From Gammaproteobacteria bacterium (GTDB lineage: Bacteria > Pseudomonadota > Gammaproteobacteria > SZUA-229), in assembly GCA_015488885.1 (NCBI GenBank), contig WFMW01000052.1:1-34801 (forward strand): 34,801 nt of DNA, given 5' to 3'. Position 1 is the first letter of the stretch. Each line of letters starts with the position of its first letter. Made by a program: the position numbers and the translations under genes. Under the pieces are notes generated by a model. The model was not told where the DNA came from. It ran no database searches and worked only from the letters and a program-made list of their open reading frames with translations. Below are positions 6,128 to 32,006 of this stretch, piece after piece.

Positions 6128-6547
6128 ATGAAAGCAGTAGTGAAGTGGCTGGATAATATGACCTTTGTCGGCGAATCAGGAAGCGGGCACAGTATCGTTA
6201 TGGATGGCCCGCCGGAAAGCGGCGGGGCTAATCTGGGAGTCAGACCTATGGAAATGGTATTGCTGGGCATGGGCGGCTGTACGGCTTTTGATGTGGTGTT
6301 GATTTTAAAGAAAGCCCGTCAGCAGATTACCGACTGCCATGTTGAACTGAGTGCGGAGCGTGCGACCGAAGTGCCGAAGGTGTTTACTAAAATTCACGCC
6401 CATTATGTGGTAAAAGGCAAAGATCTGGATGAAAAGCGGGTAGCCAAAGCGGTTGAATTAACAGCGAATAAATATTGCTCGGTATCCATCATGTTATCGA
6501 GCAGTGTGGCCATTACGCATGATTATGAAGTGATTAAGGATGCTTGA
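6128..6547 (+). CDS. OsmC family protein, YhfA-like
   Basis: A 139-residue OsmC-fold protein. The redox cysteines are C51 in GMGGCTAFDVV and C117 in NKYCSVSIML, the pair used in OsmC/Ohr proteins to reduce peroxides. The overall pattern (KWLDNMTFVGES, MDGPPESGG, RPMEMVLLGMGGC, HYEV-like end DYEVIKD) resembles E. coli YhfA, whose physiological substrate is not established, more than OsmC or Ohr proper. AGG lies about 8 nt before the ATG. It is 13 bp after trpC in the same direction and probably rides on that transcript. It converges with coq7 across 21 bp. Confidence 0.88.
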   Translation: MKAVVKWLDNMTFVGESGSGHSIVMDGPPESGGANLGVRPMEMVLLGMGGCTAFDVVLILKKARQQITDCHVELSAERATEVPKVFTKIHAHYVVKGKDLDEKRVAKAVELTANKYCSVSIMLSSSVAITHDYEVIKDA

Positions 6548-6568: not shown

Positions 6569-7207
6569 TCAAATATAATAGGCCGATATGGTCATTACTT
6601 TTGACATCGCCGCCATCAGTTTTTTTACCGGGAAAGGCAGTTCCACACCACCGTTATCCAGTGCAGTCGTGGCATGGTGAGCTTCATCTTTTTTCATCTG
6701 CGTTAAAATCGCCCGGCTGCGGTGGTCTTCTGCGGGTAACCGGTCGAGATGTGACTGTAAATGTTTTACTACCTGATGTTCGGTTTCTGCCAGAAAACCC
6801 AGGCTCCATTTATCGCCCAGTACACCGGCAAAAACCCCCATTGCAAAGGCACCGCCATACCAGCACGGATTCAGCAGGCTGGTATGACTGCCTAGTTCCT
6901 GCAAACGTAGACGAGTCCATTTAAGGTGGTCATTTTCTTCGATGGCTGACTGTTGCAGTTTGTCACGAATCAGGCTATTTCTGGCAGTTAAGGCCTGACC
7001 CTGATATAAAGCCTGTGCCGATACTTCACCGCTGTGGTCAACGCGAATTAAACCGGCAATGTGTTTTTTCTCATTAGGCTTAAATTCAACATCATTGATA
7101 TCTTCAGCTGGATAGTCGCGAGCCGTCGTTGTACCAGAACCGGCAAACGTGCGCACCACGCTGTCCAGCTGCATAATGAATTGGTCGAACGGGTTGTAGT
7201 ATCTCAT
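6569..7207 (-). CDS. coq7: ubiquinone biosynthesis hydroxylase (demethoxyubiquinone monooxygenase)
   Basis: Coq7/UbiF-replacing di-iron enzyme that hydroxylates 2-polyprenyl-3-methyl-6-methoxy-1,4-benzoquinone, a late step of aerobic ubiquinone synthesis at the inner membrane. All six ferritin-like ligands can be placed: E61 (HSGEVSA), E91 and H94 (EENDH), E143 (ETEH), E175 and H178 (DEAHH). The 212-residue length and hydrophobic segment around GGAFAMGVFAGVLG fit proteobacterial Coq7. The start is the first in-frame ATG; M12 is a possible alternative. It is transcribed divergently from the [2Fe-2S] ferredoxin gene across 68 bp. Confidence 0.94.
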   Translation of the reverse strand: MRYYNPFDQFIMQLDSVVRTFAGSGTTTARDYPAEDINDVEFKPNEKKHIAGLIRVDHSGEVSAQALYQGQALTARNSLIRDKLQQSAIEENDHLKWTRLRLQELGSHTSLLNPCWYGGAFAMGVFAGVLGDKWSLGFLAETEHQVVKHLQSHLDRLPAEDHRSRAILTQMKKDEAHHATTALDNGGVELPFPVKKLMAAMSKVMTISAYYI

Positions 7208-7275: not shown

Positions 7276-7602
7276 ATGTCATTTTATCAATACCATGTTT
7301 TTTTCTGTACGAATCAACGGGATAACGGTGAGCAATGTTGTGAACAATGTCATGCTACCGAGATTCGTGCCTATACCAAAGCCAGGCTTAAACAACTGGG
7401 CCTGTCCGGGGCGGGCAAGGTGAGAATCAATACAGCCGGTTGTCTGGGCCGGTGTGAACTCGGCCCTGTGCTGGTGGTCTACCCTGAAGCTATCTGGTAT
7501 ACCTATGTCGATCGGGAAGATATTGACGAAATTATTGAACAGCATTTGCAGGGTGGGCAAATAGTGAAACGCTTACTGATAGACGCCGATACTGGAATTT
7601 GA
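7276..7602 (+). CDS. thioredoxin-like [2Fe-2S] ferredoxin
   Basis: A 108-residue protein of the (2Fe-2S) ferredoxin family related to the Shethna protein and to NuoE-type thioredoxin folds. Cluster ligands are C11 (FFCTNQR), C22 or the neighbouring C21, C56 and C60 (AGCLGRCELGPVLVVYPE). It is presumably a cytosolic electron carrier; its partner is not evident. AGGAG lies at 7262-7266 ahead of the ATG at 7276. It stands alone, divergent from coq7, and is followed by a strong promoter and a terminator that I read as a small-RNA gene. Confidence 0.9.
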   Translation: MSFYQYHVFFCTNQRDNGEQCCEQCHATEIRAYTKARLKQLGLSGAGKVRINTAGCLGRCELGPVLVVYPEAIWYTYVDREDIDEIIEQHLQGGQIVKRLLIDADTGI

Positions 7603-7623
7603 AGTCCATTGTTGCAAAAACAC

Positions 7624-7650
7624 TTGACAATATGGTGGTTATATTATAAT
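7624..7650 (+). promoter_or_regulatory. sigma70-like promoter ahead of a putative small RNA
   Basis: Exact TTGACA at 7624-7629 and exact TATAAT at 7645-7650, separated by 15 bp, which is shorter than the optimum of 17. It lies in a gap with no coding potential, 22 bp after the ferredoxin stop. A transcript from about 7657 would reach the terminator at 7722-7750. Confidence 0.55.
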
Positions 7651-7656
7651 ATTCTA

Positions 7657-7750
7657 ATCAAGTTATGTAATTGAGTAACTTTTTTCATATTTCCTCCATC
7701 CTCCCTTTGGTGGTAATCTTCGGCGCGGTTCCTTTCCGCGCCTTTTTTTT
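7657..7750 (+). ncRNA. putative trans-acting small RNA with CU-rich anti-Shine-Dalgarno segment
   Basis: The segment between a consensus-like promoter and a strong intrinsic terminator would give an RNA of about 94 nt. It could form a weak 5' hairpin (AGTTA 7661-7665 with TAACT 7676-7680). This is followed by a single-stranded pyrimidine stretch (7690-7708) with two CCTCC blocks (7693-7697 and 7700-7704), complementary to ribosome-binding sites. A GC-rich 3' hairpin and eight T complete the structure. These are the hallmarks of Hfq-dependent regulatory RNAs. I do not recognise the family. The alternative is a 3' untranslated tail of the ferredoxin mRNA, possibly itself processed. Confidence 0.55.
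7722..7750 (+). terminator. strong intrinsic terminator
   Basis: Perfect 7-bp stem GGCGCGG (7722-7728) / CCGCGCC (7736-7742), 7-nt loop, then eight T (7743-7750). It is oriented for the plus strand and ends the putative small RNA and any ferredoxin read-through. On the minus strand no T-run follows, so it is not a waaA terminator. Confidence 0.9.
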
Positions 7751-7773
7751 GCCCGCGTTATCCATGATTATTA

Positions 7774-9021
7774 TTAGTGAATAACCGCCTCGATAAGCTG
7801 AACATACGTTGTCACAATATGATTAAAACCCTGGCTGACCCTTTTTGCATTCTCTGCCAGCTGGCTACGTCGTTGGTCATCGGCAAGTAATTGCTTTAAT
7901 GTGCTTTCAAGTTCATCCATAGAGCTTAATTGTAGTAAGGCATTTTTAGCCAGTAATAGCTCTTTTTCATCACTAAAGTTATTCATATAGGGGCCACAGA
8001 TAATGGCACAGCCAAACTGGGCGGGTTCCAGTATATTATGTCCGCCTATGGGGACAAACGAGCCACCCATAATAACCAGTTTAGCTTCTGCAAAATAATG
8101 GATTAACTCACCAACGGTATCTAGAATATAAACATCCGTATTTTTATCAACACCATGGTGCTGGCTGTGAACAGCAATATTCAGCTGTGGATTTAACTGT
8201 TTTAACTGGCGGGTAATTGCCGAACAACGTTCAGGGTGGCGCGGTGCTAAAAACAGCAGTTCGCTACGGTTTAATTTAAACCAGCGTTCGCTAATCTGTA
8301 ACTCTTCATTATGGTGGGTTGAGGCCGCTAACATGTAGTCACGATGTATTTTTATGATGTTTTCGCGGGCAGGTTCAGGCTTTTTGCAAAATTTTAAATT
8401 GCCACCAAAATGCAGTTTATATTTATCTGCACCGATTTCTTTGAATGCGGATAGATCCATTTCCGAGCGGGTATAAATGGCATCGGCATATTGCAGTGTG
8501 GTTTTTATAATGGCTTTTATCCATGGACGAGCCTGGGTGGTTTTTATCGACAGGCGTGCATTGATAAGTGTAACCGGACACTGATTTTTATGGCAGTAAT
8601 AGAACAGGTTGGGCCAGATTTCTGTTTCAACAACAAACAAAGCAACGGGTTTGAGCTGATGAAGAAAAGCTTTGACCGCAAAACCCCAGTCAAAAGGCAG
8701 ATAGGTATGATGCAGGTTTTCAAGTTGCTGTTGGCGAACAATTTTTGCACCGGTAACCGTATTGGTGGTAATGATAATTGGTAATGCCAGCTGGTTTCTG
8801 GCAGATCTGTTTTGAATAATAGTATTCACCAGTGGCATGACGGTTATTACTTCACCGACTGATGCGCAGTGTATCCAGAGTGCGTTTGATGGTAGCTTGT
8901 TGAAAGATAAACCAGTACGCTGCCAGAAATAACGCGGTTGCTGGTTACGTAGACTCCCCCAGAGAAAATAAAGTAGAATGACAGGTGACAGAAAAATAAT
9001 GAGCAGGCGATAAGCAAGCAT
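7774..9021 (-). CDS. waaA: 3-deoxy-D-manno-octulosonic acid transferase
   Basis: WaaA (KdtA) transfers Kdo from CMP-Kdo to lipid IVA at the cytoplasmic face of the inner membrane. The 415-residue protein begins with an N-terminal membrane anchor (residues 5-21). It continues with WIHCASVGEV, containing the presumed catalytic E57, ETEIWPNLFYYC, NARLS, the GGNLKF segment, and the GT-B C-terminal GGSFVPIGGHNILEPAQFG that binds the nucleotide. Length is typical. It is the last gene of a probable minus-strand operon, 18 bp after the acyltransferase gene. Functionally it pairs with kdsA/kdsC/kdsB encoded at 26971-29923. Confidence 0.96.
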   Translation of the reverse strand: MLAYRLLIIFLSPVILLYFLWGSLRNQQPRYFWQRTGLSFNKLPSNALWIHCASVGEVITVMPLVNTIIQNRSARNQLALPIIITTNTVTGAKIVRQQQLENLHHTYLPFDWGFAVKAFLHQLKPVALFVVETEIWPNLFYYCHKNQCPVTLINARLSIKTTQARPWIKAIIKTTLQYADAIYTRSEMDLSAFKEIGADKYKLHFGGNLKFCKKPEPARENIIKIHRDYMLAASTHHNEELQISERWFKLNRSELLFLAPRHPERCSAITRQLKQLNPQLNIAVHSQHHGVDKNTDVYILDTVGELIHYFAEAKLVIMGGSFVPIGGHNILEPAQFGCAIICGPYMNNFSDEKELLLAKNALLQLSSMDELESTLKQLLADDQRRSQLAENAKRVSQGFNHIVTTYVQLIEAVIH

Positions 9022-14907: not shown

Positions 14908-15036
14908 ATTTATCAAAATCAGTAATTAACCAGAAATAACTTAAGGTTTTCCAACCGTTGCCGAAAAAAGCAGGTGAGGGGATTATTTTTAATCATCCTG
15001 GCTGAATTATCGAACTATAGAACTGGAGAGCTTAAG

Positions 15037-15666
15037 ATGAAAACTGCACAAAATGTTTTTTCTAAACAACATATTTTTTCTAAACGTCATGGTTTTATTG
15101 ACCAACGTGGTTTTACCTTAATTGAAATGATTGGGGTGATGGCCATTATTGCCATTCTGGCCTCAGTAGCAACACCAAAAATACTGGATGCAATTCAAAG
15201 TTCAAAAATTTCTGCTTATCTGGCAGAAGCGAAAAATATAAAAGATGCGGCGTTTAATTATTATAAAGATACAGGAAGATGGCCTGCTCAATACTCTTTG
15301 AATACAGCTAATCAATACCAGAATTTAATGGTTAAGCCTGCTAGCGCAAGCATTAAAGGCTGGAATGGTCCTTATCTTAATGCCAGACTGGCGAATGAAA
15401 TTACCGAAGGCGCTGCTCAGTATGTTTTTGCTACTAATAGTACAAATTATGCCTGTGATATAAATGGTGATGGAAAACAGGATGGCACTTTTTTAATATA
15501 TCGTATTGATAATGTTAGCGATGAGATTGCAAAAAAGATCAGTAATATTGTTGATCATGATGGTGATAATGTTAGTGGAAATAACAGCTGGTTAAAGGCT
15601 GGGCGGATAAAGCGATATGCCGGGAAGGCGGGCTCTATCCTGGTGTATTGTCTGGCACGTGTATAG
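15037..15666 (+). CDS. type IV prepilin / GspG-like major pseudopilin of the filament locus
   Basis: A 209-residue prepilin. The class III leader is 25 residues, ending QRG, with cleavage before F26; the mature N-terminus FTLIEMIGVMAIIAILASV has the Glu at +5 required for assembly. The globular domain has a GWNGPYL segment (108-114) characteristic of GspG-type pseudopilins. It also has an EF-hand/dockerin-like calcium loop DINGDGKQDG (141-150) and a second acidic DHDGDN (173-178). Two cysteines (C140 and C205) could close a C-terminal disulfide loop. The ATG at 15037 follows a GGAG at about 8 nt; the frame is open upstream to 14974 but without a pilin-like sequence. First gene of the locus, just ahead of the ATPase. 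Confidence 0.85.
   Translation: MKTAQNVFSKQHIFSKRHGFIDQRGFTLIEMIGVMAIIAILASVATPKILDAIQSSKISAYLAEAKNIKDAAFNYYKDTGRWPAQYSLNTANQYQNLMVKPASASIKGWNGPYLNARLANEITEGAAQYVFATNSTNYACDINGDGKQDGTFLIYRIDNVSDEIAKKISNIVDHDGDNVSGNNSWLKAGRIKRYAGKAGSILVYCLARV
15055..15090. repeat. 18-bp tandem duplication inside the prepilin leader
   Basis: 15055-15072 and 15073-15090 encode VFSKQH and IFSKRH, two near-identical six-residue blocks in the basic leader peptide. The duplication is in frame and lengthens the leader to 25 residues. Confidence 0.8.
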
Positions 15667-15668
15667 TC

Positions 15669-17393
15669 ATGTTTGACAGCAGTATTGTCAATGAAGTGAG
15701 TGCTCCCCCAGTTGGTAGTGCAGAACATATGACAAAACCAGTAAAGCGGTTGGGCGAACGTCTGATTGATGCTGGCTTGATCACGCAAATGCAGCTTGAA
15801 CTGGCGCTACGCGAGAAAAAACGTCAGGATAAATTTCTTGGTGAGATACTGGTTGACCTGGGTTTTGTTACCCCGGATGCATTAACCCATATTCTTGCAA
15901 CAGAAAATAAAACAGATGTTGTTGATGTCGTTAATACAACCATTGATCCTAATGTGCTTGCAACGGTTGACTATGATATTGCAAAACAACATAAATTAAT
16001 ACCTCTTCAACTTGATGGTAATCGTTTAACGGTTGCCTTTTCTGATGCCTATAATATTGTTGCCATAGACCTGATTGAACGGCAGACGGGTAAAACGGTA
16101 AATGTTGTGACCGCGCCGGAAAAAGCCATCCTTGAAGCGCTGGAAAATAATTATGCACAGAGCCATTCCATTCTGGAAACCATCGACCAGTTATTAAATG
16201 AAGATATTGAACTGCTGGGTGAAAATATTGAAGATATTTCGCCGATGGTTAAACTGGTAGATCAGATTATTGCCCGGGGAGTTAAAGATAAAGCTTCCGA
16301 TATCCATATTGAACCTGATGAACGTGTGGTAAGAGTACGATATCGCGTTGATGGTGTACTTCGGTCTGATGTGCTGGTTCCCGGCGACTTTCGGCTGGCA
16401 TTAACCGCCAGATTAAAATTAATGGCGGGCATTAATGTTTCTGAAAAACGTGTGCCGCAGGATGGACGTATTCATTTCAAATACGGTAGTGGTGAAATAG
16501 ATTTAAGAGTATCAACCTTGCCAACCAGCTATGGTGAAAGTATTGTTCTGCGTATTCTTGATTCAGGCAGTGTGAAATTATCACTGGACAAACTTGGATT
16601 ATCCAGCCGGGATAATAAAAGATTTATTGATGCCATGAACCAGCCTTATGGCATGGTACTGGTTACCGGGCCTACCGGGAGTGGAAAAACCACCACCCTT
16701 TATACCGCGTTGGGACAGGTAGACAAGGAAACACGCAGTGTGTTTACACTTGAAGACCCGATTGAGTATAGCCTGCCAATGATTCGTCAAACGCCGATTA
16801 ATGCTGAAGTTGGTATGGACTTCGCGGCAGGATTAAGGGCTTTGTTAAGGCAGGATCCTGATGTTATATTGCTGGGGGAAATACGTGATCTTGAAACCTC
16901 TCAGTTAGCCATACGTGCTGCATTAACAGGTCATCTGGTACTGTCAACACTGCATACTAATACGGCTGCTGGATCAATTCCACGGTTAATTGATATGGGT
17001 GTTGAACGTTATCTGCTGCCATCAGCATTGCACGCAGTAATGAGTCAGCGTCTGGTGCGTCGTTTATGTGAACATTGTAAACAGGAAATAAGTGACAGTG
17101 ATAAGCTGGTTGAAACCTATGGACTGGCAGACTACTTGCCGCAAAGCTGGCAGTTTTATCAGTCATCCGGTTGTGATCACTGCGGTCAAAGCGGTTTTCA
17201 GGGGCGTAAGGTGATTTATGAAATGTTAATGATGGACGAAACCATGCATGATCTGGTTATTAATAATGCATCAGTTACCGAAATAGAACAACAGGCAAAA
17301 CACAATGGCATGAAATCTATCTTTGAAAATGGTGTGCAATGTGCCGCGCAGGGAATGACGACCATTGATGAAGTGTTACGTGTGGTGCGTTAA
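15669..17393 (+). CDS. mshE: type IV filament assembly ATPase, MshE/GspE-like
   Basis: A cytosolic hexameric extension ATPase of 574 residues from the ATG at 15669; earlier ATG 15648 overlaps the prepilin and later M21 is possible. An MshEN-type N-domain repeats the RLGxxL...I...L...L pattern twice (residues 27-50 and 57-79), the fold that binds c-di-GMP in V. cholerae MshE, though both expected Gln positions are K50 and E79. The motor has Walker A GPTGSGKT (334-341), an Asp box, Walker B VILLGEIRD (399-407) and His box LSTLHTNTAAGSIPRL. The zinc tetracysteine motif C467/C470 and C502/C505 is intact. It lies 2 bp after the prepilin gene and 24 bp before the platform gene. Confidence 0.92.
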   Translation: MFDSSIVNEVSAPPVGSAEHMTKPVKRLGERLIDAGLITQMQLELALREKKRQDKFLGEILVDLGFVTPDALTHILATENKTDVVDVVNTTIDPNVLATVDYDIAKQHKLIPLQLDGNRLTVAFSDAYNIVAIDLIERQTGKTVNVVTAPEKAILEALENNYAQSHSILETIDQLLNEDIELLGENIEDISPMVKLVDQIIARGVKDKASDIHIEPDERVVRVRYRVDGVLRSDVLVPGDFRLALTARLKLMAGINVSEKRVPQDGRIHFKYGSGEIDLRVSTLPTSYGESIVLRILDSGSVKLSLDKLGLSSRDNKRFIDAMNQPYGMVLVTGPTGSGKTTTLYTALGQVDKETRSVFTLEDPIEYSLPMIRQTPINAEVGMDFAAGLRALLRQDPDVILLGEIRDLETSQLAIRAALTGHLVLSTLHTNTAAGSIPRLIDMGVERYLLPSALHAVMSQRLVRRLCEHCKQEISDSDKLVETYGLADYLPQSWQFYQSSGCDHCGQSGFQGRKVIYEMLMMDETMHDLVINNASVTEIEQQAKHNGMKSIFENGVQCAAQGMTTIDEVLRVVR

Positions 17394-17417
17394 CCTGAAT
17401 TAAACGGGTATATCCTT

Positions 17418-18620
17418 ATGACAGAATATATCTATCATGCAGTGGATTCAAAAGGCCAGGCTATTGACGGGACAATGGCGGCTGACTCGGAACAGAACCT
17501 CGATATACAATTACAACAACTGGGTTACTGGTTAATTGATGCGGCAAAAAAGCATGGTAAAAAGGATCTGATTAAGGTCCGTACTTCACGTCGGGATCTG
17601 ATCGATTTTTTCAGTGCCTTGAGTTCCCTGCTGGCAGCAGGTGTAGGAATTTCCAAAACGCTTGATGCGATAGTCGGGGAAACTACGGATGAAGGCTTTG
17701 CAATAGTCATTAATGATATGAAAATTAATGTGGAAGCTGGTATCAGCCTGGATGTTGCAATGGCAAAACATCCACAAATTTTTTCATCACAGATAATCAA
17801 CTTAATCAAAGCGGGTGATTATAGCGGTAATCTTGCCACGGCCTGTGATGATATCAGTCGTCATCTTGAATGGCTGGATAAGATAATGTCTGAAGTAAAG
17901 CAGGCCAGTATCTACCCGGTAACTGTGCTGCTGGCAGTCATGGGGCTGGTATTTCTGATGTTTAGTTTTGTGGTGCCGCAGTTTAATAAGATATTTATCA
18001 GCCTGCATCTCAAGTTACCGGCTTTAACTCGGGCAGTGGTAGATATGGGTGAGTTCTCAACCCGATACTGGTGGCTGTTATTAAGCATACCAGTAGCCAT
18101 CACCGTGTTTCTAAAATACGGCCCTGTATGGTCATTAAAAATAAAAATAAAACTGGATCAGTTAAAGCTTGATATACCTGTGTTTGGCCATTTAAACAGG
18201 ATGATTCTGCAATCAAGGTTTTGCCATAATATGGCTTTATTATTAAAGGCTGGCGTACCCATTCTTGAAAGCCTGTCATTATGCAAAGCATTAATGGGTA
18301 ACTGGCAAATGCAAACTGCTGTCGCAGAAGCAGAGGCTGCTGTTAATGAGGGACAGCGAATGTCAGAAGCTCTACGTAAGCATCGAATTATCTCTCCTGT
18401 TGTATTGAGAATGCTGGTTGTCGGGGAAGAAACAGGTGAGCTGGATAAAATGCTGGAGTGTGCATCTTTACGTTTTGATAAAGAGATTCCGAGGCAAATA
18501 AAATATATTTTTAATCTTGTTGAACCGGTAGTTATGTTTTCCCTGATAAGCATTGTTGGTTTGATAGGTGGCGCAATATTCATGCCGATGTTTGGTCTGA
18601 TTTCAGGGATAGGAAATTAG
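17418..18620 (+). CDS. mshG: inner-membrane platform protein, MshG/GspF-like
   Basis: A 400-residue polytopic protein with two T2SS-F domains (about 63-186 and 262-390) that couples ATPase motion to filament assembly. Membrane segments are near residues 168-190 (VTVLLAVMGLVFLMFSFVV), 213-232 and 370-395 (VVMFSLISIVGLIGGAIF). The N-terminus MTEYIYHAVDSKGQAIDGT and the repeated FCHNMALLLKAGVPILESL / LSSLLAAGVGISKTL blocks are diagnostic of the GspF/PilC/MshG family. Length matches. Directly follows mshE and precedes the second prepilin. Confidence 0.92.
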   Translation: MTEYIYHAVDSKGQAIDGTMAADSEQNLDIQLQQLGYWLIDAAKKHGKKDLIKVRTSRRDLIDFFSALSSLLAAGVGISKTLDAIVGETTDEGFAIVINDMKINVEAGISLDVAMAKHPQIFSSQIINLIKAGDYSGNLATACDDISRHLEWLDKIMSEVKQASIYPVTVLLAVMGLVFLMFSFVVPQFNKIFISLHLKLPALTRAVVDMGEFSTRYWWLLLSIPVAITVFLKYGPVWSLKIKIKLDQLKLDIPVFGHLNRMILQSRFCHNMALLLKAGVPILESLSLCKALMGNWQMQTAVAEAEAAVNEGQRMSEALRKHRIISPVVLRMLVVGEETGELDKMLECASLRFDKEIPRQIKYIFNLVEPVVMFSLISIVGLIGGAIFMPMFGLISGIGN

Positions 18621-18630
18621 GAAGATGAGC

Positions 18631-19413
18631 ATGAGGCAGTCTAATATGAAACGGTTTAATATAAAACGAAAAAGCAATGGTTTTACCTTGATAGAGCTTA
18701 TTGGTGTAATGGCCATTATGGCAATACTTGCCGGTGCCTTAGCACCAAATATTGCAGACAGTATTAACCGGGCAAACAGTGATGCGGAAGTGCAGAATCT
18801 GGACAGTCTGGCAGATAGTCTCATCTATTATATATTAACAAAAAAGAAAATCCCTTCATCCTCTCCATCTTCATGGGTCAATGCCATTGCCACAAACAGT
18901 ATGTTTCAGGAAGAAAGAATTAAATATAATGTAAAAGGTTACCAGCGCATCCTGATCTTTGATCCAAGATTTTTTTCAAATAATAAAGATAATAACTTTA
19001 CTGGATATACACAGAATAAAGGCCTGGCTAACTCACCTTTTTCACCAAGGATGATGCTGATATCCAGCCTGACCGGAAATATTCCTAGCATAGGAAACAA
19101 AGCCAGTATTTTTAATGCAATCTGGAACCAGAAAAATGCACCGGTATTAATGGAAAGTAAAAACCTGAAAATAAAACGTATAAATGTGGCAAAAAAATTT
19201 CATCGCATAATTTTGAGTAATGCAAAGTCGAATAAAACATTTTATCAGCTTGAAAATGGAAGCGAGGTAACAATTCCTGCTAAAAGTAATGGCGTTAACG
19301 GTATGCTAACTCGATACATTCTTGGTAGTACGAAACTTTCACTTTATAACACCACCGGAAAACTAGTGGATGTTCGTGTTATTCAGTCAGACTGGTCGTA
19401 TCAATATAATTAA
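18631..19413 (+). CDS. second type IV prepilin-like protein
   Basis: A prepilin of about 260 residues with a short basic leader ending KSNG and mature start FTLIELIGVMAIMAILAGALAP, again with Glu at +5. The N-helix is nearly identical to that of the first prepilin (both FTLIE[LM]IGVMAI[IM]AILA), whereas the globular domain differs and lacks GWNGPYL, cysteines and the calcium loop. ATGs at 18625 and 18631 are both close to AGGAAG (18619-18624); spacing favours 18631, and M at 18646 is a third option. A minor pilin or tip component is likely; which of the two prepilins is major is not settled. Sits 10 bp after mshG. Confidence 0.8.
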   Translation: MRQSNMKRFNIKRKSNGFTLIELIGVMAIMAILAGALAPNIADSINRANSDAEVQNLDSLADSLIYYILTKKKIPSSSPSSWVNAIATNSMFQEERIKYNVKGYQRILIFDPRFFSNNKDNNFTGYTQNKGLANSPFSPRMMLISSLTGNIPSIGNKASIFNAIWNQKNAPVLMESKNLKIKRINVAKKFHRIILSNAKSNKTFYQLENGSEVTIPAKSNGVNGMLTRYILGSTKLSLYNTTGKLVDVRVIQSDWSYQYN

Positions 19414-19437
19414 CAGCAATAACAATAATAACTGAAT

Positions 19438-20838
19438 ATGGATAAAACAATGAAACGATCACAATATGCTATTTCGTGGATATATGGTGAATTTCGTTTT
19501 TCACATCTGTCAAATACCGGAAAAGCCGAGAGCTGGCTGGTCAGCTTTCCGGTTACCGATGTTGAAAGTCTTGCTCGCGCAATGGCTGAGGTAAGTCAGC
19601 ATATTGATTTAACGCATGGGGGTAGTGTTGTTATTGCGTATGAAGATGATATGCATACGCATGAGTTTTTTGAGGTTCCGGAGATGGCCAGCAAGGATCT
19701 CGAAAAATATCTGCAAAGAAAAGTTGACCAAAATAAACCATTCAATGGCAAGGCATCATGGTGTTATCACGATGCTAAATACAGTGAACAGGGTAAAGGC
19801 ATTTTGTTGCACCTTTTGCCGCAGGAAATTGTTGATGCCACGATCAGGATATGTGAAGAATTTTATCTTACGCCACGTTTATTTATACCATTGACTGCTG
19901 TTGTTTCGAGTCAGGTAAAAAACTATAGTTTTGATGGCAATTACGTTCTTGTGGTTGTTGCCCTGTTCAGTCAACGCACTGAAATCGTGGTTACCATGAG
20001 TGATGGTGAGGTATTATTTGTACGTGAGCTGCCATATGCAGGCTATCTTGAAGGTCAGCCACGGCTTGTTATAGATATCAATCGAACCATAAGCTATGTA
20101 AAACAGCAGTTTGCCATGGCTGTTAACCGGGTATGTCTGATTGGAGAAAATGCAGAAGCCGTTCAGAAAAATATACTGACTGATATCAATGTAGATATAC
20201 ACTATGATCAGGATGGTCTGGATGCGTTGTTCTGGGCAAAGATTACATCAGGACTAAAGACCAATATCTCTGCCAACTTTATCCCCTTATTAACCAGAAA
20301 GCGTATTAACAAAACACTCTTCTACCGGGTCGCTGTCTGGTCAACCATGCTGCTTGTTATAACATCATTGTTCATTACTGCCACTATTGAAAAAACGGTT
20401 TCGGATCGAGGCGGTAACAGTCAATCATTAGATGAAGATATCAGTCATCTTGAAAACAGTATTAAACACTATAAATTATTAAATTCCAGACGCGAGGAGG
20501 AAAAGAACAGATTAAGAATATTGCGTGCCAATGCAACAAATATACCAGCTATATTTATTAACCATCTTGGAGATATAGTGCCGCGAGGACTGGTTATAGT
20601 TAATGCAAATATAAAATTAAAAGATAGAAAATGGAATGTTATGTTGACAGGAACGAGTCAGGGAATACTTTCCAGTGACATGAAAAGTCTGGATAAAATG
20701 GAACAGGCACTGAAACAAGATCCATGGAATATGACTATTACAAGGAGCTGGAAATCGGCATGGTATAAACATTTAACATCAGGCTCGGCAGGGCATTCAG
20801 CTCAGTCAGAATATACAATAGCAGGCTGGATGAAATGA
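19438..20838 (+). CDS. mshI: MshI-like assembly protein, PilM-like plus PilN-like fusion
   Basis: A 466-residue protein combining an N-terminal cytosolic PilM/actin-like region (about residues 1-285) with one transmembrane helix (295-316, YRVAVWSTMLLVITSLFITA) and a PilN-like periplasmic part. The latter has a coiled coil (about 325-365) and a small ferredoxin-like end (LGDIVPRGLVIVNANIKLKDRKWNVMLTG). Nucleotide-binding motifs are too diverged to place. Such a fused architecture is also that of GspL. It should link the ATPase to the inner-membrane ring. Start at 19438 or the ATG four codons on (19450). The stop overlaps the next start as ATGA. Confidence 0.68.
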   Translation: MDKTMKRSQYAISWIYGEFRFSHLSNTGKAESWLVSFPVTDVESLARAMAEVSQHIDLTHGGSVVIAYEDDMHTHEFFEVPEMASKDLEKYLQRKVDQNKPFNGKASWCYHDAKYSEQGKGILLHLLPQEIVDATIRICEEFYLTPRLFIPLTAVVSSQVKNYSFDGNYVLVVVALFSQRTEIVVTMSDGEVLFVRELPYAGYLEGQPRLVIDINRTISYVKQQFAMAVNRVCLIGENAEAVQKNILTDINVDIHYDQDGLDALFWAKITSGLKTNISANFIPLLTRKRINKTLFYRVAVWSTMLLVITSLFITATIEKTVSDRGGNSQSLDEDISHLENSIKHYKLLNSRREEEKNRLRILRANATNIPAIFINHLGDIVPRGLVIVNANIKLKDRKWNVMLTGTSQGILSSDMKSLDKMEQALKQDPWNMTITRSWKSAWYKHLTSGSAGHSAQSEYTIAGWMK

Positions 20839-21560
20839 AAGCAGTGCCTGTACATGAACGACGCATAAAGCCACGCTTTAAGATGCCTGCACCATCACCG
20901 TTCAGAGCTTTTCTTTTTATGACTGATCGAATAGGCAGAAAAATATATCATTCATGGGTTAATACAGGCATTCTTCTTCTTGTTATAGCTGTTAGCCTGT
21001 CAATGATTCTTTGGGGTATATATGTTCGTATACCTGAGGCGGATAAATTATTAACGCAGTATCGCCAGAAAGAATCATTACAGAAACAGTTATTAAGTAT
21101 AGAAAAGCAATGGTCAGAACCTGGCATGTTATTACTTGAAAAGAAAATATCAAAAGAACAGGCAAGAGTATTTAATGGGGTTGATTCTCTGGCGCAATGG
21201 TTAGTCAATAAAGCCCATGAGGCAGCAAAACTAGGTTTTAATATGAATTATATTATTAACAAACAAAATAAAACCCGTTTAAAAAATATCTATACCCTGT
21301 CCATTGTAATCACATTAAAGGTTAAGGGTAAACCAGACGATAGTATCTATACAGGCGCATTAAAATTTATTCGTAGGCTTATTGAAGAGAATCAGCATCT
21401 TAATATTTCTGTTATCAATATGAAAAGCCTTGGTCATGGTGTTGATGAAATGGTTATTGAAATAAGCGTATGGGTTAGAGATATAAACGCAATGTTAAAA
21501 AAAACTAAAATGAATAATAAGGATAATGTTGATGAAAATACAGATATCACGGGTCTTTAA
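20835..21560 (+). CDS. mshJ: MshJ/PilO-like inner-membrane assembly protein
   Basis: A 241-residue bitopic protein: a basic cytosolic N-terminus, one transmembrane helix (about residues 38-58, NTGILLLVIAVSLSMILWGIY), a coiled-coil stretch around 70-100 and a periplasmic domain. Sequence similarity to a family is weak, but length, topology and position between the MshI-like and MshK-like genes match PilO/GspM/MshJ. Its ATG overlaps the TGA of the preceding gene, implying translational coupling. The last 29 bp overlap the next gene. Confidence 0.6.
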   Translation: MKAVPVHERRIKPRFKMPAPSPFRAFLFMTDRIGRKIYHSWVNTGILLLVIAVSLSMILWGIYVRIPEADKLLTQYRQKESLQKQLLSIEKQWSEPGMLLLEKKISKEQARVFNGVDSLAQWLVNKAHEAAKLGFNMNYIINKQNKTRLKNIYTLSIVITLKVKGKPDDSIYTGALKFIRRLIEENQHLNISVINMKSLGHGVDEMVIEISVWVRDINAMLKKTKMNNKDNVDENTDITGL

Positions 21561-22068
21561 TAAGAAACTGGCTATTATCTTGCTTGTTGGTATTGCTGTT
21601 TATGTTAATGCTACTAATTTTATTCATATCCATGCAGACAATGATTCGGCTGCTGTACAGGGAGACCCTGTTGGTATCGATGATGATATTGAAATATCAA
21701 CTGGTTCCAAAAATTCTGCTTTAAGCAGGATTAATATAAAATCTCTGCACTGGCGTGATAGTCCGTTACGAGATCCATTCAGTGTTTTATCAAACAAATA
21801 TTTATCAAACCGGTATTTATCAGGCAGGAACAGCTTGGTTCCCTCAAAAAAAGCTGCCTTACTAAGTCGGTCTGATACCCTGGGCTTTTCTCCAAAAATA
21901 ACTGCTTTAATTGCCGGGGTTAACTCGAAGTTAGTGGTGTTAAACGGAAAGATATTTACTGAAGGACAGCGCATAGGGGGCTATCGTATTGTAAAAATAA
22001 ATCATCAGGGTATTTTACTGGATAACATTCATGGGCATTCATCATTGACTCTGAAAATGGATAGATAG
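21532..22068 (+). CDS. mshK: MshK/PilP-like periplasmic protein
   Basis: From the ATG at 21532 (AAGGA 9 nt upstream) it has 178 residues; an ATG at 21526 gives two more. An N-terminal hydrophobic anchor (about 12-30) is followed by an LRDPF segment and a C-terminal beta domain with ALIAGVNSKLVVLNG and GQRIGGYRIVKI, the pattern of MshK/PilP/GspC HR domains that contact the secretin. It precedes the secretin gene by 3 bp, as PilP does PilQ. A 15-bp tandem duplication lies inside it. Confidence 0.66.
   Translation: MKIQISRVFNKKLAIILLVGIAVYVNATNFIHIHADNDSAAVQGDPVGIDDDIEISTGSKNSALSRINIKSLHWRDSPLRDPFSVLSNKYLSNRYLSGRNSLVPSKKAALLSRSDTLGFSPKITALIAGVNSKLVVLNGKIFTEGQRIGGYRIVKINHQGILLDNIHGHSSLTLKMDR
21793..21822. 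repeat. 15-bp tandem duplication within the mshK-like gene
   Basis: 21793-21807 and 21808-21822 encode NKYLS and NRYLS. A third, shorter partial copy precedes them (TTTTATCA). The reading frame is preserved. Confidence 0.75.
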
Positions 22069-22071
22069 TCT

Positions 22072-23625
22072 ATGAATAATATACTTAAAATTCTCCTTCT
22101 GCCATTTATATTAGCTTCCTGTACAACCATGTCTGATAGAATAAATATAGATGATTTCCCCAGACACCATTCACAGGTGAAGGAAGTTATTCATCACCTC
22201 GATATCAAGCCCCTTGCAGTGCGTGAGCGCATGTCATGGCCTTCGAACAGACCTGTTTTACCTATAAAAACTACAGAAAAACTCTATACTTTTGCAGCCC
22301 GAGATATGCCTGTTGATAAGGCGCTGGATTTATTCGCCAGAGCCTATAATCTGAATATACTTATTGATAAAAATATTCAGGGTACGATTAACGTTACTTT
22401 TCATGATTTGCCCTTTAATCAGGCAATGAGTTCCATTCTTGATTCACTGGGTTATTACTGGCAGCGCAATAATAACCTGATAGAAGTTAAAGCATTACAG
22501 ACAAAATTATTTAATATTAATTACATCAATCTGATTCGTACTGGCTCGGGTACAAGTGAAGCACAGGTTAGTACTGGTGGTGGTTCGGACGGTTCAGGGA
22601 GTTCGGGAGGTAGCAGTGACAGTAGCAGCAGTACAAGTGGTGGGAATATTACTGTTGAACAGAAAAATAATATTGCATTCTGGAGTGATCTGGAAAAGCA
22701 GTTAAAAATTCTGGTGTCACCCAAAGGTCGGCTGGTAATTAACCGGATATCGGGAACAATACAGGTGACCGATCTGCATCCAAGAGTGATGGAGATTGCT
22801 CGCTATATCAATGATATTAATAGTGCAATACTCAGGCAGGTGGACATTCAGGTGAAAATAGTTGAAGTGCTTCTGAATGATAATTTCAGTCTGGGGGTGG
22901 ACTGGTCACGTCTGGTTAATCAAACATCTGGTGCCAATTTAAATTTTAATATTAATAACACCATTACTTCTCCAACTGCTGGTGTTGGTGCTGCACTTTC
23001 GAATGTGCTTCATCTTACTGCTGCCGATATAGGGAGCCATGGTGAGAACAAGATTACCGCTATGATTACCGCATTACGCCAGCAGGGTCAGGTTCAAATT
23101 GTTTCCCAGCCACATATTCGAACATTAAATAATCAGTCGGCGTTAATCAAGGTGGGCACTGATCGTACTTTCTTTCGTCGTGAGCAGAATACCGATAATA
23201 CAACGGCGGGTTCTAACACCACAACCACTGATGTACCACAGGTAGTTACCGAAGGAATCGTATTGTCCATTACCCCGCAAATTTCAAAAGATGGTTGGGT
23301 TATGATGGACATTTCACCTGTGGTAACCCGTGTTTCCAGCGTTACTGAAGTTAAAGACAGCAAAGGTGATGTAAAATCCTCTGCACCTAATCTGGATATT
23401 CGCCAGATTTCCTCTTTAGTGCGTGCCTTTAATGGTGAAACCGTGGTCATTGGCGGTCTGATACAAACCGTTGATGCAGATACGCATCGTGGGGTACCGG
23501 GGTTGAGTGATGTTCCGGTAGCCGGAAATTTGTTTAAAGCTAAAAGTACCTCAAAGGCAAGAAAGGAATTGATTATATTTTTAACGCCAACAATTATTGA
23601 TACCAGAAAAATCTTTCATAGTTAA
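22072..23625 (+). CDS. mshL: outer-membrane secretin lipoprotein, MshL/PilQ-like
   Basis: A 517-residue secretin that forms the outer-membrane pore for the filament. It is a lipoprotein: lipobox LASC with lipidated C17. An STN/N0-like domain lies at about 70-140 (TFAARDMPVDKALDLFARAYNLNILIDKNIQG), then a Gly/Ser-rich linker at about 167-191, an N-domain at 200-290 and the secretin domain to the end, including the signature VPGLSDVPVAGNLF and LIIFLTPTII. The lipidated N-terminus and STN arrangement are as in MshL. Lies between the mshK-like gene (3 bp) and the TPR gene (11 bp). Confidence 0.9.
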   Translation: MNNILKILLLPFILASCTTMSDRINIDDFPRHHSQVKEVIHHLDIKPLAVRERMSWPSNRPVLPIKTTEKLYTFAARDMPVDKALDLFARAYNLNILIDKNIQGTINVTFHDLPFNQAMSSILDSLGYYWQRNNNLIEVKALQTKLFNINYINLIRTGSGTSEAQVSTGGGSDGSGSSGGSSDSSSSTSGGNITVEQKNNIAFWSDLEKQLKILVSPKGRLVINRISGTIQVTDLHPRVMEIARYINDINSAILRQVDIQVKIVEVLLNDNFSLGVDWSRLVNQTSGANLNFNINNTITSPTAGVGAALSNVLHLTAADIGSHGENKITAMITALRQQGQVQIVSQPHIRTLNNQSALIKVGTDRTFFRREQNTDNTTAGSNTTTTDVPQVVTEGIVLSITPQISKDGWVMMDISPVVTRVSSVTEVKDSKGDVKSSAPNLDIRQISSLVRAFNGETVVIGGLIQTVDADTHRGVPGLSDVPVAGNLFKAKSTSKARKELIIFLTPTIIDTRKIFHS

Positions 23626-23636
23626 ATGAGATTGTC

Positions 23637-24347
23637 ATGAGAATAATAGTATTATTGATACTGATGGGTTTGGCACCGTTTGCCAGTGCTGTGGAAAGTA
23701 ACGATTTATCACCGATCAAAATCATTCATCCTGCCCGTTCATTACCTCGTCAACAAAATACTGGTTCTATACTGGCGGCAGCATTAAAAGCGGAAAATAC
23801 GGGTAATTTGATCACAGCTATATCTCTGCTCAAACCCGTCTATCAACACCTGCCAGATAATGCATTGGTTCGTTTGAACTATGCAAGAGTGCTGATCGAA
23901 AATGGTGAGGCGAATAAAGCTATTGCTGTTGTCCAGCCTCTGGTGAACAAAAACTCTCAGGACTGGCGTCCCTGGTTCTGGTTGGGCAGTGCGCAGTTAA
24001 TGTCTGGTGATCTGGAAAACGCAGCTGAGTCACTTGATGCAGCGCTGGATCGAGAGGGGAAAGTAATGGCTATCTGGGTGCAACGAGCCATTGTTGCGCA
24101 GCAACGTGGCAAGACGAAAGCGGCATTAAGTTTATTACAGGTGGCTTATGGTATTGAACCGAAAAATGCTGATGTGGTATTAAATTATGCCTATACGCTG
24201 GAGCAGGCCGGGCAATTAAAAAAAGCACTGAATGCTTATCAGCTTTTTTTACAGATGACAGCAGCCAAACCTCATTATGGTACTTTACGCCGACAGATAC
24301 TTCAACGACTGGATAAAATTGCTGCCGGAGTAACCGTGTATAAATAA
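23637..24347 (+). CDS. periplasmic TPR protein, MshN-like
   Basis: A 236-residue protein with a signal peptide (cleavage after FASA, about residue 18) and at least four tetratricopeptide-like repeats between about 45 and 215, with regular ALKAEN / AISLLKP, ALVRLNYARVLIENGE, WFWLGSAQLMSGDLENAAESL, ALSLLQVAYGIEP and VVLNYAYTLEQAGQLKKAL helices. It closes the filament locus and resembles the MshN-type TPR gene that follows mshL/mshM in MSHA loci. No ExeA-like MshM gene is found between it and the secretin. Confidence 0.74.
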   Translation: MRIIVLLILMGLAPFASAVESNDLSPIKIIHPARSLPRQQNTGSILAAALKAENTGNLITAISLLKPVYQHLPDNALVRLNYARVLIENGEANKAIAVVQPLVNKNSQDWRPWFWLGSAQLMSGDLENAAESLDAALDREGKVMAIWVQRAIVAQQRGKTKAALSLLQVAYGIEPKNADVVLNYAYTLEQAGQLKKALNAYQLFLQMTAAKPHYGTLRRQILQRLDKIAAGVTVYK

Positions 24348-31929: not shown

Positions 31930-32006
31930 TGGTCGGAGTGAGAGGATTTGAACCTCCGGCCCCTACGTCCCGAACGTAGTGCTCTACCAGGCTGAGCTAC
32001 ACTCCG
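31930..32006 (-). tRNA. tRNA-Pro, anticodon CGG
   Basis: The minus strand reads a full 77-nt cloverleaf: acceptor CGGAGTG paired with CACTCCG, D arm with AGCCTGGTAGAGC, anticodon loop TTCGGGA with anticodon CGG (reads CCG), T arm GGTTCAAATCC, and encoded ACCA at the 3' end (31933-31930). The C1-G72 pair is typical of tRNA-Pro. Confidence 0.96.

Follow-up and report, generated by a model that had tools for sequence, protein, structure and literature searches.

The question raised by this locus is what occupies the short interval between a ferredoxin gene and the converging waaA in the window (the whole 34,801-nt stretch of DNA that was analysed). The best explanation is that it holds a gene for an RNA of ~91 nt, a candidate gammaproteobacterial sister of the S17/BdhR1 (RF02278) RNAs with an anti-Shine-Dalgarno mechanism. 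We put the probability at about 0.8, a figure that covers the small RNA (sRNA) identity and the anti-Shine-Dalgarno mechanism jointly and does not extend to the ArsR regulator considered further on. Promoter, terminator, conserved core, homology, common neighbourhood and distribution were computed here. The features concerned are the following.

6128-6547, plus strand: OsmC-like gene (PF02566), a neighbour common to RF02278 loci
6569-7207, minus strand: coq7 (PF03232), a neighbour common to RF02278 loci and Bordetella S17
7276-7602, plus strand: thioredoxin-like [2Fe-2S] ferredoxin gene (PF01257), upstream of the sRNA on the same strand
7624-7629, plus strand: -35 element TTGACA, kept in relatives
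7641-7660, no strand assigned: putative operator with 11/14 matches to ATATTAG-N6-CTAATAT, overlapping the -10 element
7647-7652, plus strand: -10 element TAATAT, separated from the -35 element by a 17-bp spacer
7659-7750, plus strand: predicted sRNA of ~91-92 nt, its start placed from the -10 element and its end at the T run
7660-7681, plus strand: 5' hairpin AAGUUAU..GUAACUU, of variable sequence and conserved folding in relatives
7692-7714, plus strand: core UCCUCCAUCCUCCCUUUGGUGGU (DNA TCCTCCATCCTCCCTTTGGTGGT) with two anti-Shine-Dalgarno CCUCC blocks; a weak hairpin is possible, with the second block in its loop
7722-7750, plus strand: intrinsic terminator, a 7-bp GC stem GGCGCGG/CCGCGCC (7722-7742) and then eight T (7743-7750)
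7774-9021, minus strand: waaA (Kdo transferase, PF04413), converging on the sRNA; rplM-rpsI take its place in many relatives

Elsewhere the window holds a tRNA gene (31933-32006, minus strand) and, at 14974-24347, genes for pilin-like, ATPase, inner-membrane and secretin-like proteins which, judged by eye from their translations, resemble an MSHA-type pilus cluster.

The elements that a first-pass annotation had read in this interval are largely where it placed them. TTGACA (7624-7629) and TATAAT (7645-7650) are present with the 15-bp spacing that it gave; TAATAT, two positions further on, is the better -10 element because many relatives have GATAAT or GAAAAT there. The gap is free of coding frames, in the sense that no open reading frame of 70 or more codons lies between the stops of the ferredoxin gene (7602) and of waaA (7774), and both the 5' hairpin (AAGTTAT..GTAACTT in the DNA) and the GC-rich hairpin followed by eight T are confirmed. 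The CU-rich stretch does carry two CCTCC blocks; its description as wholly single-stranded does not stand, part of it being able to form a weak hairpin. The proposal of a trans-acting sRNA of about 94 nt is supported as to its nature, with a predicted length that is slightly shorter.

The 94-nt stretch folds at -23.9 kcal/mol versus -11.9 for dinucleotide shuffles (z = -4.57, with 0 of 200 shuffles as good), and the terminator stem covaries, with compensatory changes in 8 pairs. Folding is also significant in the 36 nt 5' of the core, despite their variable sequence: the mean z is -2.23 over 98 such regions, and z falls below -1.5 in 65 of the 98, versus 15/98 and 5/98 in two upstream control segments. 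Promoter, 5' hairpin, double-CCUCC core and terminator together are predicted to make up a free-standing small-RNA gene.

Homologs were collected in several ways. Comparison of positions 7600-7775 with 58 genomes by blastn gave strong matches centred on core and terminator, both in the window's own family (E down to 1.6e-27) and outside it, in two further families (G045, G051). When named genomes were scanned by pattern, so that the core is invariant by construction, at least 118 stretches were obtained; Thiocapsa, Thioalkalivibrio, Thiothrix, Chromatium, Halochromatium, Beggiatoa, Thiomargarita, Sedimenticola and Arenicella are among the matches listed. A covariance model, R1, was built from 68 homolog loci: a terminator could be detected, and enough sequence lay upstream, in 136 of 142 oriented loci (L087 and L097 are omitted by name), removal of redundancy left 70, and L003 and L077 were dropped as incomplete. 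The blastn and R1-scan loci were not chosen by that pattern, R1 itself having been built largely from loci that were. L097, where a core is present and a terminator lacking, is probably fortuitous. Tandem copies of the sRNA gene occur: there are three in L087 (5783-6025) and an array of four, the last diverged, at ~900-1470 of L252, in a genome (G393) that has seven in all over two places.

R1 matches 176 of the 369 genomes of the class at E ≤0.01. PrrF (RF00444) and SorX (RF02784) cross-match it weakly, at 31-36 bits, by way of a UCUCC-like stretch and a terminator, and the family count is therefore restricted to scores of at least 40 bits, which are reached in 114/369 genomes. In a sample of the phylum 44 of 397 genomes match at E ≤1e-4, 41 of them in the same class. 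The f156 sites checked among these 41 (four sites, two genomes) are PrrF; the other three genomes share a family in a different class, and the one that was checked proved to be SorX. The core of PrrF differs from that of the window RNA, and the window scores 23.8 bits with the PrrF model against a gathering score of 90.

The genes around the RNA bear on whether it is a separate unit. Among the 142 oriented loci, many of which stop early at the ends of the examined stretch, rplM lies within 1.5 kb in 78, the ferredoxin gene in 55, coq7 in 32, osmC in six and waaA in one. That one is the window's own, so that the ferredoxin/waaA pair, beside which the first-pass annotation would have sought homologs, is not their common setting. 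The conserved setting has osmC, coq7 and ferredoxin genes upstream and, in many relatives, rplM-rpsI downstream; the window retains the three upstream genes and has waaA next, Chromatiaceae loci have tgt/queA as neighbours, and other loci differ again. The frequent ferredoxin neighbour, and the position of the RNA on the ferredoxin strand ~90 nt beyond the stop of that gene, would suit a mere terminator and 3' untranslated region of the ferredoxin mRNA, with no independent sRNA. This is improbable: a conserved -35/-10 pair precedes the RNA, the core is kept beside tgt, queA or other genes and in tandem copies, and a terminator alone needs no such core. The rplM genes, mostly placed shortly downstream on the same strand, would likewise suit a cis-acting leader, for example an attenuator, of the downstream operon. 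On the other hand, no such gene comes next in the window, where waaA converges, or in the tgt/queA and other contexts, and a strong terminator separates core from operon, which makes a leader function very improbable. The variety of contexts (ferredoxin or coq7 with rplM-rpsI, tgt/queA, others) rules out a leader of rplM or of any one fixed gene and, together with the RNA's own promoter, argues that the sRNA gene is a separate unit. With its own promoter, covarying terminator, near-invariant core and several gene contexts, the reading of the RNA as a trans-acting anti-Shine-Dalgarno sRNA is well supported.

The core is nearly invariant in sequence among homologs, and its secondary structure is less firmly fixed. 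In the window the core hairpin amounts to ~-4 kcal/mol and has two competing registers. One of these, CCAUC/GGUGG, is in line with the stem, there stronger, that RF02278 members form; in a 23-sequence alignment 97.4% of its cells pair. Two-sided covariation was looked for in that alignment and none was found, nor does the hairpin do better there than shuffles; the seed hairpin is thus compatible with the data rather than proven. A search of the window's own genome for targets with AAAGGAGGATGGAGG, the reverse complement of the core, at up to two mismatches returned the sRNA gene itself as sole match. The minus strand offers, to the eye, a good ribosome site and then a 14-codon frame, and might be thought to specify a small peptide or a GGA-rich RNA resembling CsrA-binding RNAs. 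Relatives have lost the 14-codon frame, on which ground the peptide and the GGA RNA were rejected; T run and promoter lie on the plus strand in the relatives shown, and a functional product from the minus strand is hardly credible.

The first-pass annotation placed the sRNA in an unrecognised family. It is instead a relative of Rfam RF02278/BdhR1 and of Bordetella S17, although it lies below the Rfam cut-off. At Rfam's own thresholds the window gives a tRNA alone, and 14 homolog loci give tRNAs alone. With RF02278 ("Betaproteobacteria toxic small RNA"), whose gathering score is 50 bits, the window reaches 27.4; at a relaxed threshold the alignment runs from position 1 to 64 of the model, its full length, with core and terminator in register. 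All 16 of 16 homolog loci match RF02278 at E ≤1 with 25.1 to 42.4 bits, none reaching the cut-off. In the class as a whole 137 of 369 genomes match RF02278 at E ≤0.01 and two of 369 exceed the cut-off; 75 of 79 best RF02278 places coincide with R1 places, and G290:C25:1035 and G075:C4:324604 bring these to 77. In GTDB the Betaproteobacteria sit within the same class, so that betaproteobacterial genomes probably account for some class-wide matches, those exceeding the RF02278 cut-off among them.

The window RNA has the two-hairpin architecture of RF02278, the first hairpin (weak, and with no two-sided covariation) bearing the CU-rich anti-Shine-Dalgarno stretch and the second being the terminator; it also lies in the osmC/coq7 neighbourhood of RF02278 and S17. 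Seven RF02278 loci above the cut-off were examined (L221, L244, L245, L246, L247, L249, L251). In six of them osmC lies within 1 kb, accompanied by coq7 in four of the six; in two, osmC upstream is combined with rplM-rpsI downstream. The window family therefore shares with RF02278 (BdhR1; ncS03, ncS05, ncS27 and ncS62 of Burkholderia cenocepacia) a full-length model match, a CU-rich double anti-Shine-Dalgarno core, a hairpin plus terminator, and the osmC/coq7 and rplM-rpsI neighbourhood of the above-cut-off members. It differs in its core (UCCUCCAUCCUCC-UUUGGUGGU in the window family, with a weaker seed hairpin; UCUCCUCCACCUCCUCCUUUGGUGGA in RF02278), in the 5' hairpin before the core and in its own palindrome-bearing promoter. 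L251 passes both models (65.6 bits with RF02278, 59.6 bits with R1) and has the palindrome at its promoter; in sequence it is a bridge between the two families. None of the six neighbour genes occurs in the examined stretch of L251. By the curated score the window RNA is not a formal member of RF02278; its homology, neighbourhood and likely mode of action are nonetheless in keeping with the family.

The studied relatives indicate what such an RNA may do. Bordetella pertussis S17 (PMC11722255) is described as a repressor whose gene adjoins coq7, whose 27-nt CU-rich stretch is identical across Betaproteobacteria, and which works with Hfq and acts through ribosome sites; a lacZ fusion shows its repression of a gene for a sigma-54 activator, and the authors of that study tie S17 to BdhR1/RF02278. 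Coq7 neighbour, conserved CU-rich stretch and intrinsic terminator are common to S17 and the window RNA. In contrast, the form S17S arises by RNase E processing from a longer RNA, and S17 is higher in the Bvg+ mode according to the same text (PMC11722255), whereas the window RNA is read from sequence as having a direct promoter with a palindrome. Growth inhibition of E. coli on overexpression is reported for RF02278 in the text available (PMC4603805, PMC11722255); S17 is described there as not impairing exponential growth (PMC11722255). The alpha-r14/cuckoo RNAs and NfeR1 of Alphaproteobacteria also have anti-Shine-Dalgarno CCUCC seeds that occlude ribosome sites (PMC10746234). As described in the accessible part of that paper, alpha-r14/cuckoo RNAs consist of three hairpins each with CCUCCUCCC, an architecture different from that of the window RNA, in which this threefold repeat is not found; no common neighbourhood was seen. 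No account of the family in Gammaproteobacteria proper was found in the open-access literature searched.

What might switch the RNA on is suggested by the palindrome over its promoter, which is new here for this sRNA family. ATATTAG-N6-CTAATAT is matched at 11 or more of 14 positions in 61 of 98 upstream regions, with 2.2 expected from dinucleotide shuffles, the pattern having been chosen by inspection of these same 98 regions. A second set is the cleaner test for that reason: 17 of 29 loci found by R1 score at least 11, versus 0.3 expected from mononucleotide shuffles (the set comprises 29 of 30 R1-scan loci, L198 being unusable, and may share genomes with the first). In 36 genomes the exact palindrome has 35 forward sites versus two for a reversed control. 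Genes beside exact or near-exact copies include those for YceI, Hfq, YgaP-like protein, YeeE-type sulfur transport, rhodanese, peroxiredoxin/SLAC1, C_GCAxxG_C_C, and membrane-fusion and outer-membrane efflux proteins, and in the divergent promoter of one BigR-like arsR gene two exact copies overlap; some sites fall inside reading frames or beside unrelated genes. Exact sites are widespread (L153 at 1501-1520, L177, L179, L178, L263, L255, L254 and others). Those at YceI, hfq, YgaP-like, sulfur-transport and arsR genes look like an undescribed regulon, and the distribution of the palindrome suggests control by a putative sulfide- or persulfide-sensing ArsR repressor.

A candidate for that repressor is encoded in the window's own genome, a BigR-like ArsR protein (L270) whose best PDB match is BigR (E 1.8e-17). 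In the PDB search BigR is the top or nearly the top match of both this protein and that of L254, and each of the two has two cysteines, which we take to correspond to the BigR sensor pair; with 108 (L254) and 80 (L270) of the 155 bits of the NCBIfam BigR cut-off, they fall below it, and their operator binding is putative. Nearly identical BigR-like ArsR proteins with two conserved cysteines (L270-L293) are found in almost every genome of the window's family. Across the class, BigR-like ArsR proteins occur in 110 of 114 sRNA-bearing genomes versus 132 of 255 others, a comparison uncorrected for kinship. The window's own genome also has adjacent dsrA and dsrB (G000:C57, L297), both above their NCBIfam cut-offs, and the organism probably oxidises sulfur through reverse Dsr.

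The own-genome evidence for the palindrome is less favourable. At up to two mismatches its sites number 63 forward versus 58 for the control, which is the background level, and the best site upstream of the own BigR-like gene reaches 10/14, which is not a good operator; relatives have mostly weak sites, at 9-12 of 14, before the conserved BigR-like gene. For the first two reasons the proposal that, in sulfur-oxidising Gammaproteobacteria, the regulon of a BigR/SqrR-like dithiol ArsR includes the S17/BdhR1-type RNA, at some loci with hfq, is held tentatively, at somewhat below even odds. There is nearly an even chance that the palindrome is part of the promoter, or the site of another regulator, instead of an ArsR operator. 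It overlaps the -10 element in most members, the arsR gene of the window's genome lacks it, and the accessible literature on BigR, HlyU, YgaV, sHdrR and NfeR1 yielded no occurrence of the sequence, nor any footprint of the first three that contains it. Against a mere promoter part or another regulator's site stand members in which the palindrome lies further upstream, around a TTGACT -35 element (L085, L135, L150), and its presence at hfq, YceI, YgaP-like, sulfur-transport and efflux genes and at one arsR gene. No sRNA under a BigR-type repressor was found in the open-access literature searched.

The proposed course of events, in which the ArsR step is the tentative one, runs as follows. A repressor bound to the promoter palindrome would gate transcription; to judge from sequence it would most likely be an ArsR protein of the BigR/SqrR kind that senses sulfide or persulfide. 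As these rise it would be released and the RNA would appear. By analogy with the studied relatives, Hfq probably holds the RNA at its U tail, and the UCCUCC-AUCCUCC segment would pair with the Shine-Dalgarno stretch of several mRNAs, blocking ribosome binding, so that translation of a set of mRNAs would be shut down.

Filed as betaproteobacterial, the family thus turns up in 114 of the 369 genomes sampled from the class, with cultured Thiocapsa, Thioalkalivibrio and Thiothrix among its carriers, and gains an ancestral setting, osmC/coq7 and rplM-rpsI, as well as a concrete hypothesis for its on-switch. The sRNA gene is common to many sulfur-oxidising and related bacteria, and its RNA probably blocks the start of translation on selected messages. 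If the regulon reading is true, it would be a sulfide-responsive small RNA, and the ArsR link, if true, would couple the sensing of sulfur to the control of translation among bacteria that keep the sulfur cycle going.
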